A model generated the notes under the pieces. The model was not told the origin of the DNA. It searched no databases and saw only the letters and a program-made list of their open reading frames with translations. From assembly GCA_035528375.1 (NCBI GenBank), contig DATKYS010000004.1:1-10113 (forward strand): DNA of 10,113 bases, written 5' to 3'. The position numbers and the translations under genes were made by a program. Below, in pieces: positions 1,653-10,112 of this stretch (within the stretch, counting starts at the first letter, position 1; every line of letters starts with the position of its first letter). The DNA comes from a bacterium (GTDB lineage Bacteria; RBG-13-66-14).

Positions 1653-2789
1653 ATGAGGAAGTACTTGTTCTTGCTTGTTCTTCTGTCGGCGGTCGCCTTC
1701 GCGGGTGGCGCGGTGGCATTGCAGGCGGAAAGTTCCCTCCCCCCGGCCGTCGGTACAGGTGCGCTTCCCTTCGGGTTATCCCCCCCGGCTCAGGGCGGCG
1801 GGGCGGGGTACTACTTCTGGGATTCCGCCGAGACCGACACCTGGGCGCCCACCTACGGGTGGCGCAGCCCGGTCAACCACATGGGGTGGCACGGCGACGA
1901 CGTGTTCTGGACCACGTCGCTGCCCTTCACCGTGACCTTCTGCGGCATCCGCCACAACGCGGGGACGAACCTCTACGTCGGCTCCAACGGCATCGTCGGG
2001 TTCATGTCCCAGAAGATGGATGAGCCGATCAACCAGAACATCCCGGTCTCGGCTTCGCCGAACGCCATCATGGCCGTGTTCTGGGACAACCTGACCGGTT
2101 ACACGTACGGCGACATCTCGGTGGACCTTATCGGCACCGCGCCCAACCGCGCGCTATTCGTCACCTACTCGCCCTGGTACTACGACCTGGCCCCGTCGGA
2201 CCCCATCGAGTTCCAGGTTCTCATCCGCGAGACCGACGTGTCCGGGATCAACAACACCATCGAGTTCCGCTACAAGGACGTCATCGGTGACTCCTGGCGC
2301 GACAACGGGTTCTCCGCGACGGTGGGCCTGGAGAACAACTCCGGCGTCATAGCGGCCAAGTACTCCTACAACACGCCGTTCATCACCGGCCAGCTGGCCG
2401 TCCGCTTCGTGGACAGCCAGTTCGTGGACAGCCAGCTCGGCGATTTCCACCTGATCGCCCCCGAGGACGGCTACACCGCCGTGGTCGGCGAGTGGGTGGA
2501 TTTCCAGTGGCAGGCTTCGGAGTACACCGGCCACGGCACCGTCACCTACGAGCTGTACCTGGACGACAGCCCGGATTTCAGCGACCCCGCCATCTTCGAC
2601 GTCGGGACCGACACCAACTATCGCTACGTCTTCGGCTCCGACGACACCGGCACGTATTGGTGGAAGGTGTTGGCCACCGAGTCGGTCATCGGCCTCGATA
2701 AGTGGTCCGAGGAGACGAACCAGCTCATCATCAGCGGCGTGGATGTCACCGTATCCACCTGGGGCCAGATCAAGGCCGACTTCGAGTAG
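1653..2789 (+). CDS. Secreted tandem-paralogue family protein 1 with WGxIKxxF tail
   Basis: 378 residues. The ATG at 1653 is chosen because GAAGGAG lies just upstream and a Sec signal peptide begins there (basic RK, hydrophobic to about residue 22, no lipobox Cys). The longer frame from 1581 adds only non-signal sequence. A conserved N-terminal domain covers about 52-254: YYFWDS at 53-58, FCG at 97, LYVGSNG at 107-113, PNAI/FWDNL at 136-147, PIEFQV at 184-189, the RYKDVIGDSWRDNG block at 206-219, ATVGLEN at 222-228 and YSYN at 237-240. A fibronectin-III-like domain follows at about 263-360, with W285, VTYELYL at 297-303, YWWKV at 335-339 and WSEE at 351-354. It ends with TWGQIKADFE. The molecular role is unknown; an extracellular or cell-surface protein is my inference. 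A 15-bp direct repeat duplicates FVDSQ at 252-261. It has its own promoter and terminator. Confidence 0.88.
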   Translation: MRKYLFLLVLLSAVAFAGGAVALQAESSLPPAVGTGALPFGLSPPAQGGGAGYYFWDSAETDTWAPTYGWRSPVNHMGWHGDDVFWTTSLPFTVTFCGIRHNAGTNLYVGSNGIVGFMSQKMDEPINQNIPVSASPNAIMAVFWDNLTGYTYGDISVDLIGTAPNRALFVTYSPWYYDLAPSDPIEFQVLIRETDVSGINNTIEFRYKDVIGDSWRDNGFSATVGLENNSGVIAAKYSYNTPFITGQLAVRFVDSQFVDSQLGDFHLIAPEDGYTAVVGEWVDFQWQASEYTGHGTVTYELYLDDSPDFSDPAIFDVGTDTNYRYVFGSDDTGTYWWKVLATESVIGLDKWSEETNQLIISGVDVTVSTWGQIKADFE

Positions 2790-2809
2790 TTCTTCCGCCA
2801 CCGATTACG

Positions 2810-2840
2810 GAGGGGCGCTCTGGAAAACGCCCCTCGTTAT
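2810..2840 (+). terminator. Terminator of family gene 1
   Basis: A hairpin of GAGGGGCG (2810-2817) with CGCCCCTC (2828-2835) and a 10-base loop is followed by GTTAT. The stem is perfect but the T run is short, so termination may be incomplete. It lies 20 bp after the stop codon, before the promoter of the next gene. Confidence 0.6.
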
Positions 2841-2861
2841 AAGATTTCGCGTTTGTTTTTC

Positions 2862-2890
2862 TTGACAAGACCCAAATACGGTGTTAGATT
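2862..2890 (+). promoter_or_regulatory. Promoter of family gene 2
   Basis: TTGACA (2862-2867), a 17-bp spacer and TAGATT (2885-2890), the same as upstream of family gene 1. The leader is about 38 bases. The flanks share little, so the matching core looks functionally kept rather than recently copied. Confidence 0.75.
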
Positions 2891-2934
2891 GCCCCTCGCG
2901 TGGTTTTCCTTTTTCTCGGGAATAAGGAGGAAAG

Positions 2935-4062
2935 ATGCACAAGGTTCTGATATATATCCTCCTGGTCTCCGTTTCGGTCTTCGCGGCCGCTACGGTTAGC
3001 GTCCAAGAGGAATCTCCTTCAACCTCACCGGCGGTGACCCTCTGGCCCGGATACGTGCCGCCTCTCGCGGGAGACGGTGCGGGGTACTACTTCTGGGACT
3101 CGCACGAGAGCGACGAGTGGGCGCCCACGTACAACTGGCGCACGCCGCACAACCCCCAGGGCTGGCACGGGGACGACACATACTGGACCGTGTCCACCCC
3201 CTTCGCCATCAGGTTCTGTGGCTCCGACCGTTCCACGGGGTCCAACTTCTACATTGGCTCCAACGGTATCATGGGCTTTTCGAGCAGCGGCATGGACGAC
3301 CCCATCAACCAGAACCTCCCCAACACTGCGGCGCCCAACAACATCCTCGCACCGTTCTGGGACAACCTGTCCGGCTACTCCGACGGTGACATCTGGGTGG
3401 AGTTGGCCGGGTCCGCCCCGACCCGCAAATGGTGCATCACCTACTCGCCCTGGTACTTCTACGAGGCCGGCGCGGATCCCATCGAGTTCCAGGTCCTCAT
3501 CTACGAGGCGCCGCTGACCACCGTGAACAACTCCATCGAGTTCCGCTACAAGGACGTGATCGGCGACTCCTGGCGGGACAACGGCTTCTCCGCCACCGTG
3601 GGCCTGGAGAACTCGGGCGGCACCGACGCCGTCCAGTACTCCTACAACCAGGATATAATCCCCAACCAGATCGCCATCCTCTTCGTGGACATGCACTGGG
3701 TGGATGACCAGCTCGGCGAGTTCAACCTCCTCACCCCCGTGGACGGGTCCGAATACAAGCCCGGCGATACGGTCCACTTCACCTGGGAGGAGCCCGACTA
3801 CGAGTTCGGCCACGGCGCCGTCAATTACACCCTCTACCTGGCCGACAACGAGGGCTTCAACGACCCCCTGGTCTTCAATCGCGGCACCAATCCCTGGTTC
3901 GACTACATCTTCGGCGACGACGACACGGGGCACTACTGGTGGAAGGTTTACGCGGAGGAGACCGACATCGGCAACAGCGTGTGGTGCAACGACGTCTTCG
4001 ATTTCACCGTCCCCAGCTCGGTCGAGGATACGACCTGGGGCCGGATCAAGGCCGATTTCTAG
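2935..4062 (+). CDS. Secreted tandem-paralogue family protein 2 with WGxIKxxF tail
   Basis: 375 residues. The start is fixed by AAGGAGG four bases before the ATG and by a signal peptide over about residues 1-20. Same architecture as protein 1: YYFWDS at 51-56, RFCG at 93-96, FYIGSNG at 105-111, FWDNL at 141-145, the RYKDVIGDSWRDNG block at 204-217 (identical in residues to protein 1, with several synonymous DNA differences), ATVGLEN at 220-226 and YSYN at 235-238. VDDQLGEF at 256-263 leads into the fibronectin-III-like part (HFTWEEPDY at 281-289, YTLYLADN at 298-305, YWWKV at 334-338). The tail is TWGRIKADF, directly before the stop. It carries three mature-region cysteines (95, 167, 351); only the first is shared with all paralogues. 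This is the closest paralogue of protein 1 in the window. No enzyme motif is visible; a secreted or surface role is inferred. Confidence 0.88.
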   Translation: MHKVLIYILLVSVSVFAAATVSVQEESPSTSPAVTLWPGYVPPLAGDGAGYYFWDSHESDEWAPTYNWRTPHNPQGWHGDDTYWTVSTPFAIRFCGSDRSTGSNFYIGSNGIMGFSSSGMDDPINQNLPNTAAPNNILAPFWDNLSGYSDGDIWVELAGSAPTRKWCITYSPWYFYEAGADPIEFQVLIYEAPLTTVNNSIEFRYKDVIGDSWRDNGFSATVGLENSGGTDAVQYSYNQDIIPNQIAILFVDMHWVDDQLGEFNLLTPVDGSEYKPGDTVHFTWEEPDYEFGHGAVNYTLYLADNEGFNDPLVFNRGTNPWFDYIFGDDDTGHYWWKVYAEETDIGNSVWCNDVFDFTVPSSVEDTTWGRIKADF

Positions 4063-4129
4063 TCATCCTCCCCTCGCGGGCGGGATACCGCGGGGATAGT
4101 ACGCTGAGTTAACGGCGTCTTCCCTTTAC

Positions 4130-4157
4130 GGGCGGGGTTCTGGACCCCGCCCCTTTT
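4130..4157 (+). terminator. Terminator of family gene 2
   Basis: A perfect 9-bp stem, GGGCGGGGT (4130-4138) with ACCCCGCCC (4144-4152), a 5-base loop and then C plus TTTT. It lies 67 bp after the stop codon. This is a standard intrinsic terminator shape. Confidence 0.75.
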
Positions 4158-4254
4158 ATCGGTCCTTGTGGGGGGCCCGGTCCCCTTTTTTTTTAAGGCG
4201 GCCCTCACCCTTAATCCCGTCGGCGCGCCGCTCCCACTGGGAGAGGGAAACAGC

Positions 4255-4341
4255 GGGCGACCGTGGAGGACTCGTCCTACCGGTCGCCCCTACGGGTGAA
4301 ATTCGCCGTATGGACGTAGGGGCGGGTGTCCACACCCGCCC
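4255..4341. repeat. Head-to-head pair of GTAG-footed hairpins (REPIN-like), copy 1
   Basis: On the minus strand, a GTAG foot (4293-4290) abuts a hairpin with arms at 4281-4289 and 4255-4263 (GGGCGACCG/CGGTCGCCC) and an inner AGGAC/GTCCT stem. On the plus strand, a GTAG foot (4316-4319) abuts GGGCGGGTGT/ACACCCGCCC (4320-4329, 4332-4341). The two feet face each other across 22 bp. A GTAG tetranucleotide at the hairpin foot and inverted pairing are hallmarks of REP/SMAG elements and REPINs, which RAYT-type tyrosine transposases mobilise. No RAYT gene is in the window. Confidence 0.7.
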
Positions 4342-4350
4342 GTTTTTTTT
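4320..4350 (+). terminator. Repeat-borne terminator-like hairpin with T8
   Basis: The plus-strand GTAG hairpin (arms 4320-4329 and 4332-4341) is followed after one G by eight T. It would work as an intrinsic terminator for rightward transcription, although the native transcript should already end at 4157. The same hairpins at 7323 and 7482 lack the T run, so the T run belongs to this array rather than to the element. Confidence 0.5.
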
Positions 4351-4493
4351 AAGGCAGCCCTCACCCTTAATCCCGTCGGCGCGCCACTCCCACTGGGAGA
4401 GGGAAACAGCTGGTCGCCGCTTTCACATTCCCAACCCCGACCCTCACCCCGACACGTAAGCGCGCTTCCCCCCAGAGGGAGGAGGGGACATGC

Positions 4494-4580
4494 GGGCGAC
4501 CGTGGAGGACTCGTCCTACCGGTCGTCCCTACGGGTGAAATTCGCCGTATGGACGTAGGGGCGGGTGTCCACACCCGCCC
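4494..4580. repeat. Head-to-head pair of GTAG-footed hairpins (REPIN-like), copy 2
   Basis: Near-exact copy of 4255-4341 with the same length, arm order and 22-bp spacing. Minus-strand foot 4532-4529 with arms 4520-4528/4494-4502; plus-strand foot 4555-4558 with arms 4559-4568/4571-4580. I see one base difference, in the right arm of the first hairpin (a C to T change that still allows a G-T pair). Confidence 0.7.
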
Positions 4581-4589
4581 GTTTTTTTT
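4559..4589 (+). terminator. Second repeat-borne terminator-like hairpin with T8
   Basis: Same hairpin and eight-T run as at 4320-4350. It sits about 310 bp upstream of family gene 3, so it would block read-through from the left and makes a nearer, unrecognised promoter for gene 3 necessary. Confidence 0.5.
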
Positions 4590-4649
4590 AAGGCGGCCCT
4601 CACCCTTAATCCCGTCGGCACGCCGCTCCCACTGGGAGAGGGAAACCGC

Positions 4650-4687
4650 GGGCCGACCTAAACGGCGCGCCGTCGGTCGGCCCCTAC
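4650..4687 (-). repeat. Variant GTAG-footed hairpin
   Basis: GTAG foot (4687-4684 on the minus strand) followed by arms GGTCGGCCC/GGGCCGACC (4675-4683, 4650-4658) and an inner palindrome ACGGCGCGCCGT (4662-4673). The stem sequence differs from the other copies but pairing is complete, so the fold and foot are kept while the sequence changes. Confidence 0.6.
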
Positions 4688-4897
4688 GAGGCATTTACCC
4701 CTCACCCTACCCTCTTCCCAGAGGGGAGAGGGGGATTATGGCGCCCTCACCCCGGCCCGTGGGCGGACCCGCACCGCATTGCTGTGGAGGACGGTCAAAC
4801 GACGCCCGACGGGGCTTGGCACGGATTTCGCTGTGAACCTGGGCGGTCACAATTTACGGCCATTTGGGCCGAATCGGAATGTAATCGAGGAGGAAAA

Positions 4898-5992
4898 ATG
4901 CGGTTCACCCAGTCCCTGCTGTTAATCGTGGCGCTCGTCGGCGTTGCGTCCGGAGCCCCCTTCCTGTCGGCCGGAATCTCGGTCGTCCCGCCCCGCGGCG
5001 GCGCCGACGCGGGCTACTACTTCTGGGACTCCATGGAATCGGGCGAGTGGGCGCCGGAGTACGAGTGGTTCAAGCCCTTCGTCTCCCAGGGGTGGTGCGG
5101 TGACGACGTCTGCTGGTCCGCCCTCACCCCCTTCGACGTCCGCTACTGCGGCGTGCTCCATACCGCCGGCTCGACCCTCTACGTCGGCTCCAACGGTGTG
5201 CTGGGCTTCTCGGATAACGGCCTGGCGGGGCCGATCAACCAGCGCATTCCCGATCCCGCTCAGCCGAACGGCGTCATCGCCCCCCTGTGGGACAACCTCC
5301 ACGGCTCGACGGACGGAAGGATCTACCTGGACCTGGACGGGACGGCCCCCGATAGACAATGGTACGTCACCTACTCACCCTGGTACTTCAACGGCACCTT
5401 GGTAGACCCCATCGAATTCCAGGTGGTCTTCTTCGAGACCGACACGACCGGCGTCAACAACACCCTCGAGTTCCGCTACCGGGACCTGGACGGCGATTCG
5501 TGGCGGGACCACGGGGCCTCGGCCACGGTGGGCCTCGAGGGCGCCTCGGGTCTCGAGGCGGCGCGCTACTCCTTCGACCAGCCCGCCATTCCCGACGAGT
5601 TCGCCGTCCGTTTCGTGGACCAGTACTACGTGGACGACCAACTTGGCGTCTTCAGCCTCCTGACCCCCGAGGACTCATCAGTCGTCGGACCGGGCGAGAC
5701 CGTGCACTTCACCTGGGAAGACCCGGAATACGGTGGGCACGGCCAGCTGCTGTACGCGCTCTACCTGGCCCGCGACCCGGATTTCGGCGAGGTCGTGGTC
5801 TTCGACATCGGCGCCGATGAGGGGATGGACCACGTCTTCGACACCGACGAGGCCGGTCCCTACTGGTGGAAGGTCCTGGCCCGGGAGACGGACCTCGGCC
5901 TCACCCGCTGGAGTGAGGAGGTCTACGCCCTGGACGTCTCCGCGTCGGAGATCGTCGAATCGAGCTGGGGGACGATAAAGACCGAATTTTAG
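4898..5992 (+). CDS. Secreted tandem-paralogue family protein 3 with WGxIKxxF tail
   Basis: 364 residues. The ATG at 4898 follows CGAGGAGG by four bases and starts a signal peptide (about 1-19); a longer frame open from 4784 is discarded. Landmarks: YYFWDS at 40-45, GWCGDDVCW at 65-73, YCG at 83-85, LYVGSNG at 94-100, WDNL at 131-134, PIEFQV at 171-176, the RYRDLDGDSWRDHG block at 193-206, ATVGLEG at 209-215 and VDDQLGVF at 245-252. The fibronectin-III-like domain has HFTWEDPEY at 270-278, YALYLARDPDF at 286-296, YWWKV at 322-326 and WSEE at 338-341. The tail is SWGTIKTEF at the stop. It carries an extra cysteine pair in GWCGDDVC (67 and 72) absent from the paralogues, which may form a disulfide. 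It follows a repeat block, with no promoter I can recognise between 4690 and 4890. Function unknown. Confidence 0.87.
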   Translation: MRFTQSLLLIVALVGVASGAPFLSAGISVVPPRGGADAGYYFWDSMESGEWAPEYEWFKPFVSQGWCGDDVCWSALTPFDVRYCGVLHTAGSTLYVGSNGVLGFSDNGLAGPINQRIPDPAQPNGVIAPLWDNLHGSTDGRIYLDLDGTAPDRQWYVTYSPWYFNGTLVDPIEFQVVFFETDTTGVNNTLEFRYRDLDGDSWRDHGASATVGLEGASGLEAARYSFDQPAIPDEFAVRFVDQYYVDDQLGVFSLLTPEDSSVVGPGETVHFTWEDPEYGGHGQLLYALYLARDPDFGEVVVFDIGADEGMDHVFDTDEAGPYWWKVLARETDLGLTRWSEEVYALDVSASEIVESSWGTIKTEF

Positions 5993-6020
5993 GAAAAGGA
6001 CTGGCGGTCCCCGGTCAGTC

Positions 6021-6051
6021 GGGCGGCGGAAGAATCCGTCGCCCTTTACTT
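6021..6051 (+). terminator. Terminator of family gene 3
   Basis: GGGCGGCGGA (6021-6030) pairs with TCCGTCGCCC (6035-6044) through one G-T pair, with AGAA as loop, then TTTACTT. It lies about 30 bp after the stop and ahead of the promoter of gene 4. Confidence 0.72.
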
Positions 6052-6095
6052 ATTGATAATCCGTGTGTTATGGTTAGACGACCCCTCCGGTAAGG

Positions 6096-6124
6096 TTGAC
6101 AGCAGCCGCTCCGGGTGATATATT
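6096..6124 (+). promoter_or_regulatory. Promoter of family gene 4
   Basis: TTGACA (6096-6101), a 17-bp spacer and TATATT (6119-6124): 6/6 and 5/6 consensus. The leader is about 45 bases before the ATG at 6176. It has the same -35 and spacing as the promoters of family genes 1 and 2. Confidence 0.75.
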
Positions 6125-6175
6125 ATCATTAGAGTTAGATTGGCGCTTTTATGCCTTTCGACCTGGGGAGGAGCC

Positions 6176-7285
6176 ATGCGCAAGACGATTCTGCTCTTGT
6201 TGGTCGCGCTGACGGCCGCGTGGGGTTACGCCATCGAGGCCGGCGGGACGGCCGCGGCTGTCGCGCTCCGGGCGGTGAGTCCGGATTTCGGCCCTCTCGT
6301 GGCGGGCTCGGGCGCCGGGTACTACTTCTGGGACTCCAACGAGACGGACGATTGGGCGCCCATGTACGACTGGATTGACGCCGGCGGCGGCACCGACCTC
6401 GGCACCGGCGACGAGGCCAGCTTCACCGTGACCACCCCCTTCTTCATCCGCTTCTGCAACCGCGACTACTCCGCCGGCTCCACCGTCTACGTGGGGTGCA
6501 ACGGCGCCCTCTCCTTCCGGAACGCCGGCATCCCCGCCGCCAACCAGGACATCCCGTCCACGACCGCCCCCAACGCCTTGGCCGCCGTCGCCTGGGACGA
6601 CCTGCGCGGCATCACCGGGGACCACCTCTACAGCTACCTGGACACCTCCGGCGATCTCGACGTCTGGGTCCTGAGCTACGACCCCTGGCACCGCTACCTC
6701 TCCGTGGGGCCCTTCCGGTTCCAGATACAGATCTACGAGCGGCCCGTGGAGGGGATCAACAACACCGTCGAGTTCCACTACCAGACGGTGCTGGCCTCGG
6801 GCATCAACCTGGGGCACAGCGCCACGGTGGGGCTGGAGAACTGGGGCGGCACCGAGGCCGCGGCGTACTCCTACAACACCAACCTCGAGGCCGAGTTCGC
6901 CATCCGTTTCGCGGACACGCACTTGGTGGACGACCAACTCGGCGCGTTCCACCTCCTCACGCCGGAGGATGGGTACGACTTCATGTATGAAGAGACCGTC
7001 CACTTCACCTGGGAGGCGCCCGAGTATTCCGGCCACGGGAATGTCACCTACACCTTCCTCCTCGGACGTGCGCCCGACCTCTCCGACGCCGAGGAGTACG
7101 ACTGTGGCACGAACACCTGGTTCGACTATTTCTTCGGCGATGGTTACGATAGTCAATGGTTCTGGAGTGTCCGGGCCGACGAGTCGGACCTGGGGCTGTC
7201 CCGCATGGCCGAGGAAATCTGGTCCCTTGAGGGTAATTGGGATGTCACCGAGGCTACCTGGGGTCAGATAAAGGCGGCCTTCTGA
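6176..7285 (+). CDS. Secreted tandem-paralogue family protein 4 (most divergent) with WGxIKxxF tail
   Basis: 369 residues. The ATG at 6176 is preceded by GGAGGAG and starts a signal peptide ending about GYA at 17-19; a TTG 12 codons upstream is not needed. Shared landmarks: YYFWDS at 49-54, RFC at 92-94, VYVGCNG at 104-110, PNAL at 132-135, WDDL at 140-143, FQIQIYE at 182-188, ATVGLEN at 216-222, YSYN at 231-234 and VDDQLGAF at 251-258. The fibronectin-III-like part has HFTWEAPEY at 276-284 and VTYTFLL at 290-296, but FWSV replaces the usual YWWKV and MAEE replaces WSEE. The GDSWRDNG block of the other three is lost (SGINLGHS at 208-215), and a Gly-rich stretch (70-78) replaces the WHGDD segment. 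Despite this drift the tail TWGQIKAAF is intact. Only a weak GACCG/CGGTC hairpin follows the stop. Function unknown. Confidence 0.87.
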   Translation: MRKTILLLLVALTAAWGYAIEAGGTAAAVALRAVSPDFGPLVAGSGAGYYFWDSNETDDWAPMYDWIDAGGGTDLGTGDEASFTVTTPFFIRFCNRDYSAGSTVYVGCNGALSFRNAGIPAANQDIPSTTAPNALAAVAWDDLRGITGDHLYSYLDTSGDLDVWVLSYDPWHRYLSVGPFRFQIQIYERPVEGINNTVEFHYQTVLASGINLGHSATVGLENWGGTEAAAYSYNTNLEAEFAIRFADTHLVDDQLGAFHLLTPEDGYDFMYEETVHFTWEAPEYSGHGNVTYTFLLGRAPDLSDAEEYDCGTNTWFDYFFGDGYDSQWFWSVRADESDLGLSRMAEEIWSLEGNWDVTEATWGQIKAAF

Positions 7286-7318
7286 CCGGCGGGCGGTCGG
7301 TTCTGGGTTTGCGATGAC

Positions 7319-7344
7319 GTAGGGGCGGGTGTCCACACCCGCCC
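7319..7344 (+). repeat. GTAG-footed hairpin
   Basis: GTAG (7319-7322) abuts GGGCGGGTGT/ACACCCGCCC (7323-7332, 7335-7344). The 26 bp are identical to the copies at 4316, 4555 and 7478. Confidence 0.7.
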
Positions 7345-7477
7345 GCTGCGATGATGTTGGGCGGCCCCGTGGGATGAATCCCCTGCGGGCCGCCGCGGTA
7401 TCTACTATTCCAACCCTTACCCTCACCCCAACCCTCTCCCTGAAAGGGAGAGGGGGTCGCTTTAACCTTGCGATGAC

Positions 7478-7503
7478 GTAGGGGCGGGTGTCCACACCCG
7501 CCC
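7478..7503 (+). repeat. GTAG-footed hairpin
   Basis: Same element as 7319-7344, also sharing the nine bases TGCGATGAC before the foot, so this pair probably arose by a local duplication. Confidence 0.7.
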
Positions 7504-7533
7504 GTTGGGCCATCCATTGCCGTGTGCCTAAAC

Positions 7534-7559
7534 GTAGGGCGGGGAATCCCATCCCCGCC
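7534..7559 (+). repeat. Variant GTAG-footed hairpin
   Basis: GTAG (7534-7537) followed by GGCGGGGA/TCCCCGCC (7538-7545, 7552-7559) with a 6-base loop. The stem differs from the main type but is fully paired. Confidence 0.6.
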
Positions 7560-7650
7560 GCGTTCACGTTCCCAACCCTGGCCCTCACCCTCAATCCCTC
7601 TCCCGGAGGGAGAGGGAGGCCGCGGGCCGCCGTTTTTATTGACGAGACGC

Positions 7651-7689
7651 GGGCGACCGTGGAGGACTCGTCCTACCGGTCGCCCCTAC
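7651..7689 (-). repeat. GTAG-footed hairpin, minus-strand type
   Basis: Arms 7677-7685/7651-7659 (GGGCGACCG/CGGTCGCCC) with inner AGGAC/GTCCT and a GTAG foot at 7689-7686. Same as 4255-4293. It is a solo copy here, lying 24 bp beyond the stop of the minus-strand GyrI-like gene. Confidence 0.7.
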
Positions 7690-7713
7690 ACCGTAAAATG
7701 CGTGCGGCCCCTG

Positions 7714-8184
7714 TTACGCCTTCTCCACCGGCAGGTAGATGTCGGTCACCAGCTCGGCGGGCGGAGTCTTGTCCGGGTCGTTCCGGTAAATCTCCAGGCA
7801 GGCCGTCTTGCGCTTCCGGTACCCGCCCAGCTCGCGGAGCTGCCGGTGGGCCTCCTCGAAGGCCCCGCCCAGCTCGTCGTACGGCCCGACGTGGTGGTAC
7901 TGGACGAAGGCCCCCCCGGCCAGCTCGTGTACGCCGTCCACGCCCGCCGGGGGCTCGCCGGTCAAGGTGTAGGCTGCGTCGTAGCGGCTCTTTTCCGTTG
8001 GAACCGTCTGCGGGTCGTCCCAGGACAGCCCCAGGACCAGCGTTTTCTCGCCGGGCGGGTTTTTGCCCATAAACTCGCCCAGGCGGCCGAAGGCGCTCTG
8101 TATACCCTCGGGCGCGTAGCCCTTCGACGAGCGGAAGTAGGCGACCCGCATGGGTTCGAGCTGTACGATCTTTATCTCGGGCAT
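7714..8184 (-). CDS. GyrI-like small-molecule-binding domain protein
   Basis: 156 residues, the length of a stand-alone GyrI/SbmC protein (E. coli SbmC is about 157). The ATG at 8184 is preceded by AAAGGAG at good spacing; the frame extends upstream to 8292 but without support. Two repeats of the SHS2-like fold are suggested: MRVAYFRSSKGYAPEGIQSA at 12-31, and GAFVQYHHVGPYDEL at 91-105 followed by a helix. The C-terminal signature CLEIYRNDP at 129-137 and TDIYLPVE at 147-154 is characteristic; Glu131 corresponds to the acidic pocket residue that binds cationic drugs in the family. No DNA-binding domain is fused. Family members bind or hydrolyse small hydrophobic or cationic molecules, or inhibit gyrase; which applies here cannot be told. 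It is the last gene after nusB and the peptidase, 70 bp from the peptidase stop, and may be co-transcribed. Confidence 0.85.
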   Translation of the reverse strand: MPEIKIVQLEPMRVAYFRSSKGYAPEGIQSAFGRLGEFMGKNPPGEKTLVLGLSWDDPQTVPTEKSRYDAAYTLTGEPPAGVDGVHELAGGAFVQYHHVGPYDELGGAFEEAHRQLRELGGYRKRKTACLEIYRNDPDKTPPAELVTDIYLPVEKA

Positions 8185-8254
8185 GGGCTCTCCTTTGCGG
8201 TCGGGGTGTCGGGTCGGCTCGGCGGACCGGCCGCCCCGGCGATGTTGTAATCGG

Positions 8255-9124
8255 CTAAAATTCTCCGGCGCGGATGAAGGCCTCGACGACACGGCCCACG
8301 GCGCCTAAACTCGCGGCCGAGCAGTGCTCCGGCGTGTCGGACGTCGTGTGCCAGACGTCGTAGTCGAAGTCAATCAAAAGAATCGTGGGCAGCCCGCGGA
8401 CCAGGAAAGGTTTGTGGTCGTCGTTGAGGGTGGCGTCGTAACCGGGCTGGAACGCCTCGACGCCCAGCCTCTTAGCGGTGTCCCAGACGCTCCGGGTGAG
8501 GTCGGGGGCGTCGAGGACCGAGTTGCCCTCGTGAAAGACCGCGAGGTCGCTGTCGCCGATCATGTCCACCACGATGCCGGCGGAGTAGGAGAGGGAGCCC
8601 TGGCGCGCCAGATGGTCCGAGCCGGTGCAGAAGTCCATCCCCCCGATGCGCCCAGAATCCTCGCCGTCGAAGAGGACGAAGATTATCCCCACGTCGGGCG
8701 TGTCCTCCGCGAAAGAGCGCGCCAGCTCGAGGAGCACCGCCACGCCCGAGGCGCCGTCGTTGGCCCCGGGTACGGGCTCGGTCCGCCGGGCGGGGTTCGG
8801 GTCCTCGTCGGCGAATATCCGCGTGTCCCAGTGCGCGCCCAGCATGACGCGCCGCGGCGCCTCCGGGTTGATCACACCGATGATGTTGGTCACCCGGAAG
8901 GCGTACGACCCGTCTGGGGAGACGTAATCGAAGGCGTCCAGGGTGAGCTGGTCGCAATGCCGGCCCAGTTCCCCGATGAGCCACCACCGGCAGGCCTCGT
9001 GCCCCGCCGAGCCGGGCATGCGAGGGCCGAAGGCGACCTGCTCCTCCAGGGACCCGAAGGCCGCTTCGGCGTCGAAGGCCGCGGCGGCGAGCGCCGTCGC
9101 CAGAATGATAAAGAGAACCTTCAT
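8255..9124 (-). CDS. Secreted M28-family peptidase, glutaminyl-peptide cyclotransferase-like
   Basis: 289 residues with a Sec signal peptide (about 1-22), so it acts outside the cytoplasm. The zinc-site motifs of the M28/glutaminyl cyclase fold are present in order: GAHWD at 97-101 (His98, Asp100), GANDGASG at 120-127 (Asp123), FDGEDSG at 152-158 (Glu155 as likely base, Asp156 as ligand), VVDMIGD at 185-191 (Asp187) and WHTTSDTP at 258-265 (His259). DDH at 235-237, LIDFDY at 250-255 and WHTTSDTP resemble glutaminyl cyclases, which convert N-terminal Gln to pyroglutamate using one zinc. His98 and Asp187 would also allow a two-zinc aminopeptidase, so the reaction is unsettled. The ATG overlaps the nusB stop by 4 bp (ATGA), which together with a weak ribosome site points to translational coupling. 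The length is typical for the family. Confidence 0.87.
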   Translation of the reverse strand: MKVLFIILATALAAAAFDAEAAFGSLEEQVAFGPRMPGSAGHEACRWWLIGELGRHCDQLTLDAFDYVSPDGSYAFRVTNIIGVINPEAPRRVMLGAHWDTRIFADEDPNPARRTEPVPGANDGASGVAVLLELARSFAEDTPDVGIIFVLFDGEDSGRIGGMDFCTGSDHLARQGSLSYSAGIVVDMIGDSDLAVFHEGNSVLDAPDLTRSVWDTAKRLGVEAFQPGYDATLNDDHKPFLVRGLPTILLIDFDYDVWHTTSDTPEHCSAASLGAVGRVVEAFIRAGEF

Positions 9125-9522
9125 AACAACCCCAGCTTTCGGGCCGCCCGGTCCAGGACGGCGTTGACGATGGCCACGGCCTCCTCGCCCGCGTAGTCCC
9201 GGCCGATTTCCACCGCCTCGTCTATGACCACCCGCGCCGGGGTTTCCCCCTCGAGCATCTCGGCGAGCGCTACGCGCAACAGCGCACGCTCGATGTGCCC
9301 CAGGCGCTCGAGCCGGTAATTCTCCAGATTTTCGCGGACGAGGCCGTCAATCCGCTCAGGGTCCGCGAAGTAACGCTCCACCAGGCGGTCGGCGAACTCC
9401 ACCACCTCGGGGTGGGGGAAGCGGGTGCTCCAGTAGCTCTCCCTCACGCCGTCGGCGCCGCCCAGCTCGGCCTGGTACAGCATCTGCAGCGCGGACTCGC
9501 GGGCCAGGCGTCTTCGGGTCAT
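9121..9522 (-). CDS. nusB: Transcription antitermination factor NusB
   Basis: 133 residues from the ATG at 9522, against about 139 in E. coli. NusB pairs with NusE (ribosomal protein S10), binds the boxA RNA of rRNA operons and prevents premature termination. The all-helical family pattern is plain: RLARESALQMLYQAEL at 5-20 (the Arg-rich helix that contacts RNA), ENLENYRLERLGHIERALLRVALAEML at about 65-90, then PARVVIDEAVEIGRDYAGEEAVAIVNAVLDR at 95-125. A GTG at 9558 would add 12 residues; I prefer the ATG, which has GGGGGA about 8 bases upstream and matches the family N-terminus. It is probably the first gene of the unit with the peptidase and GyrI-like genes. The common neighbour ribH is not upstream; a divergent small gene is. 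Confidence 0.93.
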   Translation of the reverse strand: MTRRRLARESALQMLYQAELGGADGVRESYWSTRFPHPEVVEFADRLVERYFADPERIDGLVRENLENYRLERLGHIERALLRVALAEMLEGETPARVVIDEAVEIGRDYAGEEAVAIVNAVLDRAARKLGLL

Positions 9523-9567
9523 CGCTCGATCCCCCAAACATCCGCCCAACGTTAGCACGACACCCCC

Positions 9568-9596
9568 TATACAAACAAGCCGGAGCCTGCTATCTT
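9568..9596 (+). promoter_or_regulatory. Candidate extended -10 promoter of the 86-residue gene
   Basis: TATACA (9568-9573), a 17-bp spacer and TATCTT (9591-9596), with TGC directly before the -10 as in extended -10 promoters. The start point would be near 9603, giving a short leader to the ATG at 9625. It lies in the 102-bp gap that must also hold the nusB promoter. Confidence 0.45.
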
Positions 9597-9624
9597 TTTC
9601 GGGAAAAAGCGGCCGGTACGCCCG

Positions 9625-9885
9625 ATGATAAATTCACTCCCCCCCGAAGACATCTACCTGAGCGCGGTGAACAGCCTGCTGACCGAGCGGTTCGGCTTTC
9701 CGTTGTCGCTTTCGCCCCGGGACGTGGCACAGATAATGCGGTGGTACAAAGCGGGCATTCCGCTGGGGGCGGTGCTCGAGGGGGTGACCGAGTCGCTGAA
9801 CAAAAAGCGGCAGGGTCGGCTCACGCCGCTGACCTACTGCGTGAAGACGGTGAAGGTGGCGGCCAAGAAGCGACGCCGCTTCTAG
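9625..9885 (+). CDS. Short conserved hypothetical protein, 86 residues
   Basis: A small basic cytosolic protein with no signal peptide or membrane segment. The layout is YLSAVNSLLTERFGFPLSLSP at 11-31, RDVAQIMRWYKAGIPLGAVLEGV at 32-54, a linker, then LTYCVKTVKVAAKKRRRF at 69-86. The pattern of a sugar-free LSP-x-D, a Trp, GIPL, VLxGV and later L-x-YC resembles short uncharacterised proteins that I recall from several Gram-negative phyla; I know of no function for them. The Lys/Arg-rich C-terminus could contact nucleic acid, which is only inference. No good Shine-Dalgarno site precedes the ATG, so the start is less certain, but a promoter-like site upstream and a hairpin plus TTTT downstream frame it as a one-gene unit. 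It is divergent from nusB. Confidence 0.68.
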   Translation: MINSLPPEDIYLSAVNSLLTERFGFPLSLSPRDVAQIMRWYKAGIPLGAVLEGVTESLNKKRQGRLTPLTYCVKTVKVAAKKRRRF

Positions 9886-9894
9886 GGAACCTTT

Positions 9895-9913
9895 CGACGC
9901 GGGTCGTCGTTTT
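9895..9913 (+). terminator. Terminator after the 86-residue gene
   Basis: A short perfect stem, CGACG (9895-9899) with CGTCG (9905-9909), a 5-base loop and TTTT. It starts 9 bp after the stop codon and before the next promoter. The stem is short, so strength is uncertain. Confidence 0.5.
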
Positions 9914-9929
9914 ATTAACGCGGTCCGCC

Positions 9930-9958
9930 TTGACCGGAACCGCTTTTCGTGCTAATAA
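9930..9958 (+). promoter_or_regulatory. Promoter of the 41-residue tail-motif gene
   Basis: TTGACC (9930-9935), a 17-bp spacer and TAATAA (9953-9958). It has the same spacing and nearly the same -35 as the promoters of family genes 1, 2 and 4. The -10 is looser (4/6). The leader would be about 22 bases, with AGGAGG before the ATG. Confidence 0.55.
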
Positions 9959-9986
9959 TTAAGTGTGTGAGTACCGAGGAGGCGTT

Positions 9987-10112
9987 ATGCAGAGGCGGCT
10001 CATCCTGGTTCTCGTGATTCTGGCGGTGCTGGCCGTCGCCGCTCTGGCCGGGGCCGGTTTCACCGTCGGCACGAGCTGGGGCGCGTTGAAGACCACCTTC
10101 ATCGGGGTCTAG
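9987..10112 (+). CDS. 41-residue secreted mini-protein: signal peptide plus WGxLKxxF tail
   Basis: A complete small ORF (ATG 9987, TAG 10110-10112) with CGAGGAGG ending four bases before the ATG. Residues 1-4 are MQRR, residues 5-21 are a strongly hydrophobic run of Leu, Val, Ile and Ala, and ALA at 19-21 is a good signal-peptidase I site. The mature peptide would be about 20 residues, GAGFTVG, then SWGALKTTF at 30-38, then IGV. The 30-38 block matches the C-terminal tail of the four large secreted proteins upstream ([ST]-W-G-x-[IL]-K-[AT]-x-F). It could be a functional secreted peptide carrying only the tail, or a remnant of a family gene that lost its middle. The intact promoter, ribosome site, frame and motif favour a functional gene. 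The uncleaved product could also sit in the membrane through residues 5-24. I know of no described family. Confidence 0.66.
   Translation: MQRRLILVLVILAVLAVAALAGAGFTVGTSWGALKTTFIGV

Follow-up and report, generated by a model that had tools for sequence, protein, structure and literature searches.

Four large secreted proteins encoded on a 10,113-base contig of a bacterium of the lineage RBG-13-66-14 share a short C-terminal tail, [ST]WGx[IL]K[AT]xF, which we consider, with high confidence, to be a real C-terminal sorting or docking tag. The contig (C4; DATKYS010000004.1), referred to in its entirety as the window, is one of 144 in a genome of 2.63 Mb (G000). A first-pass annotation of the window had proposed that the tail is a tag, so far unrecognised, by which exported proteins are sorted, docked, or anchored. 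This proposal is supported by the association of the tail with signal peptides and by its presence on many protein families; the role of the tail, be it sorting, docking, or anchoring, is a predicted one. With a rough probability of 0.55, the tail is read by the type IX secretion system (T9SS), for which it would be a minimal sorting tag, i.e., a further signal beside the known C-terminal domain (CTD) types A, B, and C. This reading draws on sequence comparisons, namely the co-occurrence of the tail with the translocon SprA and its exchange with type-A CTDs on homologous cargo.

The genome carries about 60 such tails. A DNA pattern for W-G-x-[IL]-K (TGGGGNNNNMTNAAR) matched 62 times in the genome versus 15 times when reversed, a stricter pattern for [ST]WGx[IL]K[AST] (WSNTGGGGNNNNMTNAARDCN) matched 50 times versus 0, and a frame-shifted control, off by one base, matched 4 times versus 2. 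Among the open reading frames (ORFs) of the fetched loci, 64 of 70 occurrences of WGx[ILMV]K lie within 20 residues of the stop codon, nearly all of them at 8–12 residues; likewise, a set of 870 simple gene calls contained 49 cases, of which 47 have the motif 8–12 residues from the end. Across 59 tails, the consensus reads V-x-x-x-[ST]-W-G-x-[IVL]-K-A-x-[FY], with V in 53, A in 47, and [FY] in 46 of them, and with W, G, and K invariant as imposed by the search pattern. Almost all tail proteins with a complete 5' end have a classical signal peptide. Signal peptides, called by a heuristic of our own and not by SignalP, were assigned to 38 of the 45 tail proteins that could be judged and to 93 of 766 other gene calls (Fisher p = 1e-25), an effect size that is approximate given crude gene calling and stretches partly picked for their tails; the motif is thus not equally common outside exported proteins.

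Nor is the tail the property of one paralogous family. Pfam identified Big_5 in 19 of 61 tail proteins, CBM96 in eight, and single beta-helix, lamin-tail, and other domains, with many of the 61 lacking any match, and NCBIfam added DNRLRE and Omp28-like proteins. At E-value limits of 0.01 for Pfam and 1 for NCBIfam, none of the models covers the tail in these 61 proteins, and no description of the motif was found in the literature searched. The lipo-invert C-terminal anchoring domain of NCBIfam (NF058595) gave two weak matches (best E 0.011) and was rejected; the match that was located spans residues 114–134 of 455, with 16 of 37 bits, outside the tail. Two tail-less relatives of a tail-protein cluster on contig C100 were observed (L043:14296-14742 and L345:1-579), of which one resembles a frame-broken copy and the other leaves the contig end.

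The four window proteins are themselves paralogs (44–55% identity to family protein 2 in the alignment), all with signal-peptide-like starts, and this would fit a motif that is merely the final strand or closing part of a single repeated domain, inherited within one family. Such an origin is barely credible, and we discarded it on the grounds of C-terminal placement, family diversity, and the structural model, since about 60 tails sit on unrelated proteins, internal occurrences are nearly absent, the tail lies outside the folded domain, and the same tail is found in other phyla. In the AlphaFold2 model of family protein 2, a fibronectin-III-like (FN3-like) domain at about residues 261–360 reaches block means of the predicted local distance difference test (pLDDT) of about 70–91, whereas the last 12 residues, modelled as a short and loose helix, do not reach 50. 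The model thereby agrees with the earlier claim that the tail is placed outside the FN3-like domain; it is poor elsewhere (mean pLDDT 51.8), and we make no claim on the fold of the N-terminal domain. FN3-containing proteins made up many of the Foldseek matches. In all four paralogs, the aligned domain end is directly followed by the tail. The protein at L062 comprises the domains of the window family, then an extra Big_5-like stretch, and then the tail, which argues that the tail is independent of the domain preceding it.

The first-pass annotation had further regarded the tag as specific to this lineage, which proved too narrow, as the tail occurs in about a dozen phyla. Among 386 genomes, 21 genomes from 13 families had at least nine pattern matches with no more than one reversed-control match, with 33–51 matches per genome in the own family and 9–56 in twelve scattered other families. 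Nearly all matches that were read in these tail-rich genomes are C-terminal, with ends such as [ST]WGx[IL]KxxFR in G038 and KLxTTWGx[IL]K in G052, and similar ends in G220, G346, and G147. The background matches of tail-poor genomes, in turn, include proteins with an internal motif, which we take to be IF-2-like and oxidoreductase-like. In a scan of named records, ends of the form [ST]WGx[IL]K[AST]x[FY]R-stop were, among the matches listed, found in Eisenbacteria, Krumholzibacteriia, Latescibacterota, Zixiibacteriota, KSB1, Calditrichota, Ignavibacteria, Neomarinimicrobiota, Coatesbacteria, Effluviviaceae, Gemmatimonadetes, and Bacteroidetes, while a few single matches, e.g., Novosphingobium, look like chance. 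The initial statement that the tail lacks a basic end does not extend to other phyla, where it ends in FR or YR.

At least 49 loci (within L161–L277) share a homologous secreted protein, about 140 residues long, that ends in SSVKRTWGSIKAMFR or similar and is also present in the cultured Adhaeribacter terrigena BT258. This protein combines FN3-like sequence with a TWGSIKAMFR end and has no Pfam family (e.g., L228:5876-6274 and L189:3874-4269). A Maf-like gene follows it in 24 of the 49 loci, among the matches listed. The neighbours of the lone tail gene in Ignavibacteria, KSB1, and relatives are presumably housekeeping genes, i.e., Maf, a SpoIID-like gene, and a B12-binding mutase-like subunit.

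Families f2–f5 of the same phylum appeared tail-negative by counts based on Trp. Their DNRLRE and Omp28-like proteins, however, end in SFGEVKALFK, SLGSIKSLFK, SLGQVKAAFR, SVGAIKAGFR, SIGTVKALYR, SLGRVKALFN, SVGRIKGLFN, and similar sequences. A stretch of 400 kb from G012 gave 382 gene calls, 13 of which have the ending [ST][LFVI]Gx[IVL]K..., compared to 0.12 expected from the internal rate, and 10 of the 13 score as signal-peptide proteins, with one just under the threshold and two without a usable start. Judging from these ends, the tail is probably phylum-wide, and Trp-based counts in other phyla are therefore lower bounds; named contigs of other lineages, 826 kb in total, showed a single Trp-less variant. 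The Trp of the originally described motif [ST]WGx[IL]K is thus not universal, being replaced by L, F, V, or I in the sister families. The phylum itself is probably Candidatus Coatesbacteria, since L187, a contig named as Coatesbacteria, is most similar to G012, which belongs to this phylum.

Regarding the machinery that might read the tail, the genome has a SprA (TIGR04189; 335.8 bits versus a curated cut-off of 200), found in full length on contig C132 (L284:7204-12930), about 48 type-A CTDs, and, among the proteins scanned, two members of the PorV/PorQ family. The full-length SprA together with the CTDs indicates a type IX secretion system. In a set of 44 genomes, SprA was present in 21 of 21 tail-rich and 5 of 5 intermediate genomes and in 0 of 14 controls. 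By our own count, SprA is clear (E ≤ ~1e-15) in about 130 of the 386 genomes. Against this background, 21 of 21 tail-rich genomes correspond to a hypergeometric p of 3.7e-11 with kinship ignored, a value that carries much less weight given one shared superphylum. The expectation that some gene would track the tails across genomes was borne out in part: SprA looks necessary, but it is not sufficient.

Two further leads were rejected. A same-genus pair, G251 (14 tails, SprA) versus G116 (no tails, weak SprA match), is not decisive because G116 has 33 CTDs and an assembly gap is possible. With 33 type-A CTDs and no clear SprA (best E 1.4e-4) at 98% completeness, G116 may either have such a gap or possess a system that lacks the usual translocon. 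A second SprA-like barrel, considered as the receptor, is also present in tail-poor genomes. This family of about 1,100 residues is outer-membrane-barrel-like, distantly similar to SprA, and without a convincing Pfam match; at an E-value limit of 1e-10, it was found in 113 of the 386 genomes (where the weakest matches may be SprA itself), with loci including L289:6264-9671, L285:6670-10593, L292:6476-9904, and, in the own genome, G000:C136:13201-16371. In some genomes, it lies near an M6-peptidase-like protein with a T9SS CTD.

Tails and CTDs appear as alternatives on related proteins. No ORF carries both, neither among 61 nor among 29 ORFs in the 1.08 Mb fetched and searched with a local profile. 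Omp28-like proteins of the own phylum bear the tail, and those of G020, G079, G149, G220, G251, G282, G297, G335, G348, G373, and G376 (a weak match in the last) bear a type-A CTD; some few further homologs lack both. G223 has a DNRLRE protein with a CTD and another that ends in STWGRIKACFR. Furthermore, the N-terminal domain of the window family recurs (26% identity, E 4.5e-6) in a protein of 1,362 residues on an Ignavibacteria-type contig, which ends in a canonical CTD. Either label on homologous cargo is as expected if both lead to the same place. An NHL protein was dropped as an exchange case, with tails in L187, L245, L249, and G012 and a G000 homolog with neither tail nor CTD, and, in the portion of the own genome that was fetched, none of its tail proteins had a CTD-bearing homolog. 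As a separate observation, Omp28-like genes of many genomes contain an in-frame TGA in the thioredoxin-like region, which applies also to a tail gene of the own genome (G000:C119:6593-7000; L047). These genes match the Omp28-related selenoprotein model of NCBIfam, so that the TGA is probably read as selenocysteine.

Taken as a T9SS signal, the tag module would span about 13–15 residues, V-x-x-x-[ST]-W-G-x-[IVL]-K-[AS]-x-[FY]-(R/K), with L, F, V, or I for W in sister families. Tail proteins would cross the inner membrane via an ordinary Sec signal peptide, as seen in their sequences, and, once in the periplasm, the flexible tail would be recognised by a machine of the outer membrane, which would either transfer the protein to the cell surface or retain it there. 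This machine would most likely be the T9SS, with SprA as the translocon and a PorV-like protein as the shuttle. Together with the aromatic end, the conserved W, G, and K may form a short amphipathic peptide that docks into a receptor. Tails on lipoproteins weakly suggest a transport role rather than a mere anchor.

Several points weigh against a T9SS-read tail. The tail lacks the beta-strand architecture of known CTDs (PMC10202324, PMC11969387). SprA and tail both belong to one superphylum, and their co-occurrence may reflect common descent; W-type tails are few in many of the genomes with SprA, and G234 has five W-type pattern matches and no SprA. Three tail proteins of the own genome have a lipoprotein-type signal, and lipoproteins are unusual as known T9SS cargo. 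A dedicated neighbour gene was sought and dismissed, as none recurs around the tail genes of the own genome, and no receptor or dedicated partner was found beside the single tail gene that is conserved in Ignavibacteria, KSB1, and related groups.

Part of this evidence would suit a tag read by a separate outer-membrane or surface receptor that merely shares its superphylum with the T9SS: the tail resembles no CTD type and no Pfam or NCBIfam model, the own genome has about 48 ordinary CTDs beside its tails, so that two labels may mean two routes, and SprA-bearing genomes with few W-type tails are common. We nevertheless find a separate receptor unlikely in view of the exchange of tail and CTD on homologous cargo, the presence of SprA in every tail-rich genome, and the lack of a recurrent neighbour gene around tail genes that could serve as a candidate. 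In a broader form, a surface-sorting route of the Fibrobacteres–Chlorobi–Bacteroidetes (FCB) superphylum, with a stand-alone tag of 13–15 residues and its own receptor, distinct from known T9SS signals, can be put forward tentatively; such a route would be used by tens of proteins in each genome, across about a dozen phyla.

A direct membrane anchor, i.e., a short amphipathic helix lying in the membrane surface without any receptor, would place W, I/L, and F/Y (i, i+3, i+7) on one helix face and would agree with the low-confidence short helix drawn by AlphaFold2. The exact G, K, and spacing to the end, however, exceed what an amphipathic helix needs, some tail proteins already have a lipoprotein anchor, and the sister families swap W for L, F, V, or I yet keep G and K, all of which makes a receptor-free anchor quite improbable. 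We assign similarly low odds to a processing or quality-control signal, such as an end recognised by a protease, which would be cut off or would flag protein that has not been exported. The extreme C-terminal position is compatible with it, and hydrophobic C-terminal ends resemble those read by periplasmic proteases, but neither the replacement of a secretion domain on homologous cargo nor the confinement to SprA-bearing genomes would be expected of such a signal.

Within the window, the tail motifs reported by the first-pass annotation were found as described (Table 1): TWGQIKADF at 2757–2783, followed by E and the stop codon, TWGRIKADF at 4033–4059, SWGTIKTEF at 5963–5989, and TWGQIKAAF at 7256–7282. 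A fifth, SWGALKTTF at 10074–10100, is followed by I-G-V and a stop codon, and belongs to a short ORF whose existence as a gene is plausible and not proven. The ORF has a strong Shine-Dalgarno sequence, and signal-peptide cleavage would leave about 18 residues, essentially a bare tail. A scan of 331 short ORFs gave no other independent one of this type, with about 0.14 expected by chance as estimated from the same counts. That it falls short of a proven gene is due to the contig end (10113), one base past its stop codon. Elsewhere in the window, ORF translations of the intergenic stretches at 4100–4840 and 7290–7600 contain repeated peptides (PSPLIPSARRSHWERETAG, with reverse-strand partners), which points to interspersed DNA repeats.

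Table 1. Tail-bearing proteins of the window and the positions of their tails.
Feature	Position	Strand	Basis
Family protein 1, 378 aa (signal peptide, beta-rich domain, FN3-like domain, tail)	1653..2789	+	ATG with Shine-Dalgarno, signal-peptide-like start, alignment
C-terminal tail of family protein 1, VTVSTWGQIKADFE	2745..2786	+	sequence
Family protein 2, 375 aa	2935..4062	+	sequence, signal-peptide-like start, alignment, AlphaFold2 model
C-terminal tail of family protein 2, VEDTTWGRIKADF	4021..4059	+	sequence; pLDDT <50 in model
Family protein 3, 364 aa	4898..5992	+	sequence, signal-peptide-like start, alignment
C-terminal tail of family protein 3, IVESSWGTIKTEF	5951..5989	+	sequence
Family protein 4, 369 aa, most diverged among the four	6176..7285	+	sequence, signal-peptide-like start, alignment
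C-terminal tail of family protein 4, VTEATWGQIKAAF	7244..7282	+	sequence
Possible mini-protein, 41 aa, signal-peptide-like start and tail (TSWGALKTTFIGV)	9987..10112	+	GAGGAGG Shine-Dalgarno, ATG at 9987, TAG at 10110-10112

If the tail is indeed a T9SS signal, many "hypothetical" proteins of uncultured FCB bacteria would gain a predicted destination, and the rule of a folded C-terminal domain on type IX cargo would need an addition. A portable surface tag of 13 residues would also make it testable what SprA and PorV read, and might serve as a display tag. The tail further offers a simple text signature by which exported proteins can be annotated in Coatesbacteria, Eisenbacteria, Krumholzibacteria, Latescibacteria, and related groups.

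Among known C-terminal signals, PEP-CTERM, GlyGly-CTERM, LPXTG, and similar tripartite tags likewise have a short conserved motif at the end of many unrelated exported proteins. These signals need a membrane helix and a basic end after the motif, whereas just 3–7 residues follow the Lys in the 59 tails, which leaves no room for a helix and basic cluster and upholds the early distinction from these tags; the CTERM models of NCBIfam had no match in the 61 tail proteins. Encapsulin cargo-loading peptides are short C-terminal docking peptides whose G-x-[IL]-[KR] core may resemble that of the tail, but encapsulin cargo is cytoplasmic, unlike the tail proteins with their signal peptides. Within the T9SS, CTDs of types A, B, and C are distinguished (PMC10202324). 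Type-B (TIGR04131/PF13585) and type-C CTDs are alternative C-terminal signals of the same system, and type B needs a PorP/SprF partner with which it is usually clustered (PMC10202324); the 61 tail proteins gave no match to either type, and no recurrent clustered partner was seen. The short CTDs of Prevotella intermedia comprise 40–55 residues with three beta strands and the type-A motifs B, D, and E (PMC11969387). They offer a parallel as shortened signals that coexist with long ones in one organism, but the tail has none of their strands or motifs. The type-A CTD (TIGR04183/PF18962) comprises about 70–100 residues with an Ig-like fold and motifs A–E (PMC10202324), whereas the tail has 13–15 residues, is predicted to be flexible, and matches no model: no type-A model covered the C-terminus of the 61 tail proteins, and an Ig-like beta-sandwich is absent from the modelled C-terminus, where the tail has a pLDDT below 50 outside the FN3-like domain. 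Nearly all complete tail proteins do have the Sec signal peptide of T9SS substrates, in a genome with SprA and a PorV-type protein, and the tail shares with type-A CTDs its C-terminal place on Sec-exported proteins, its occurrence in SprA-bearing genomes, and its use on homologs of the same cargo.

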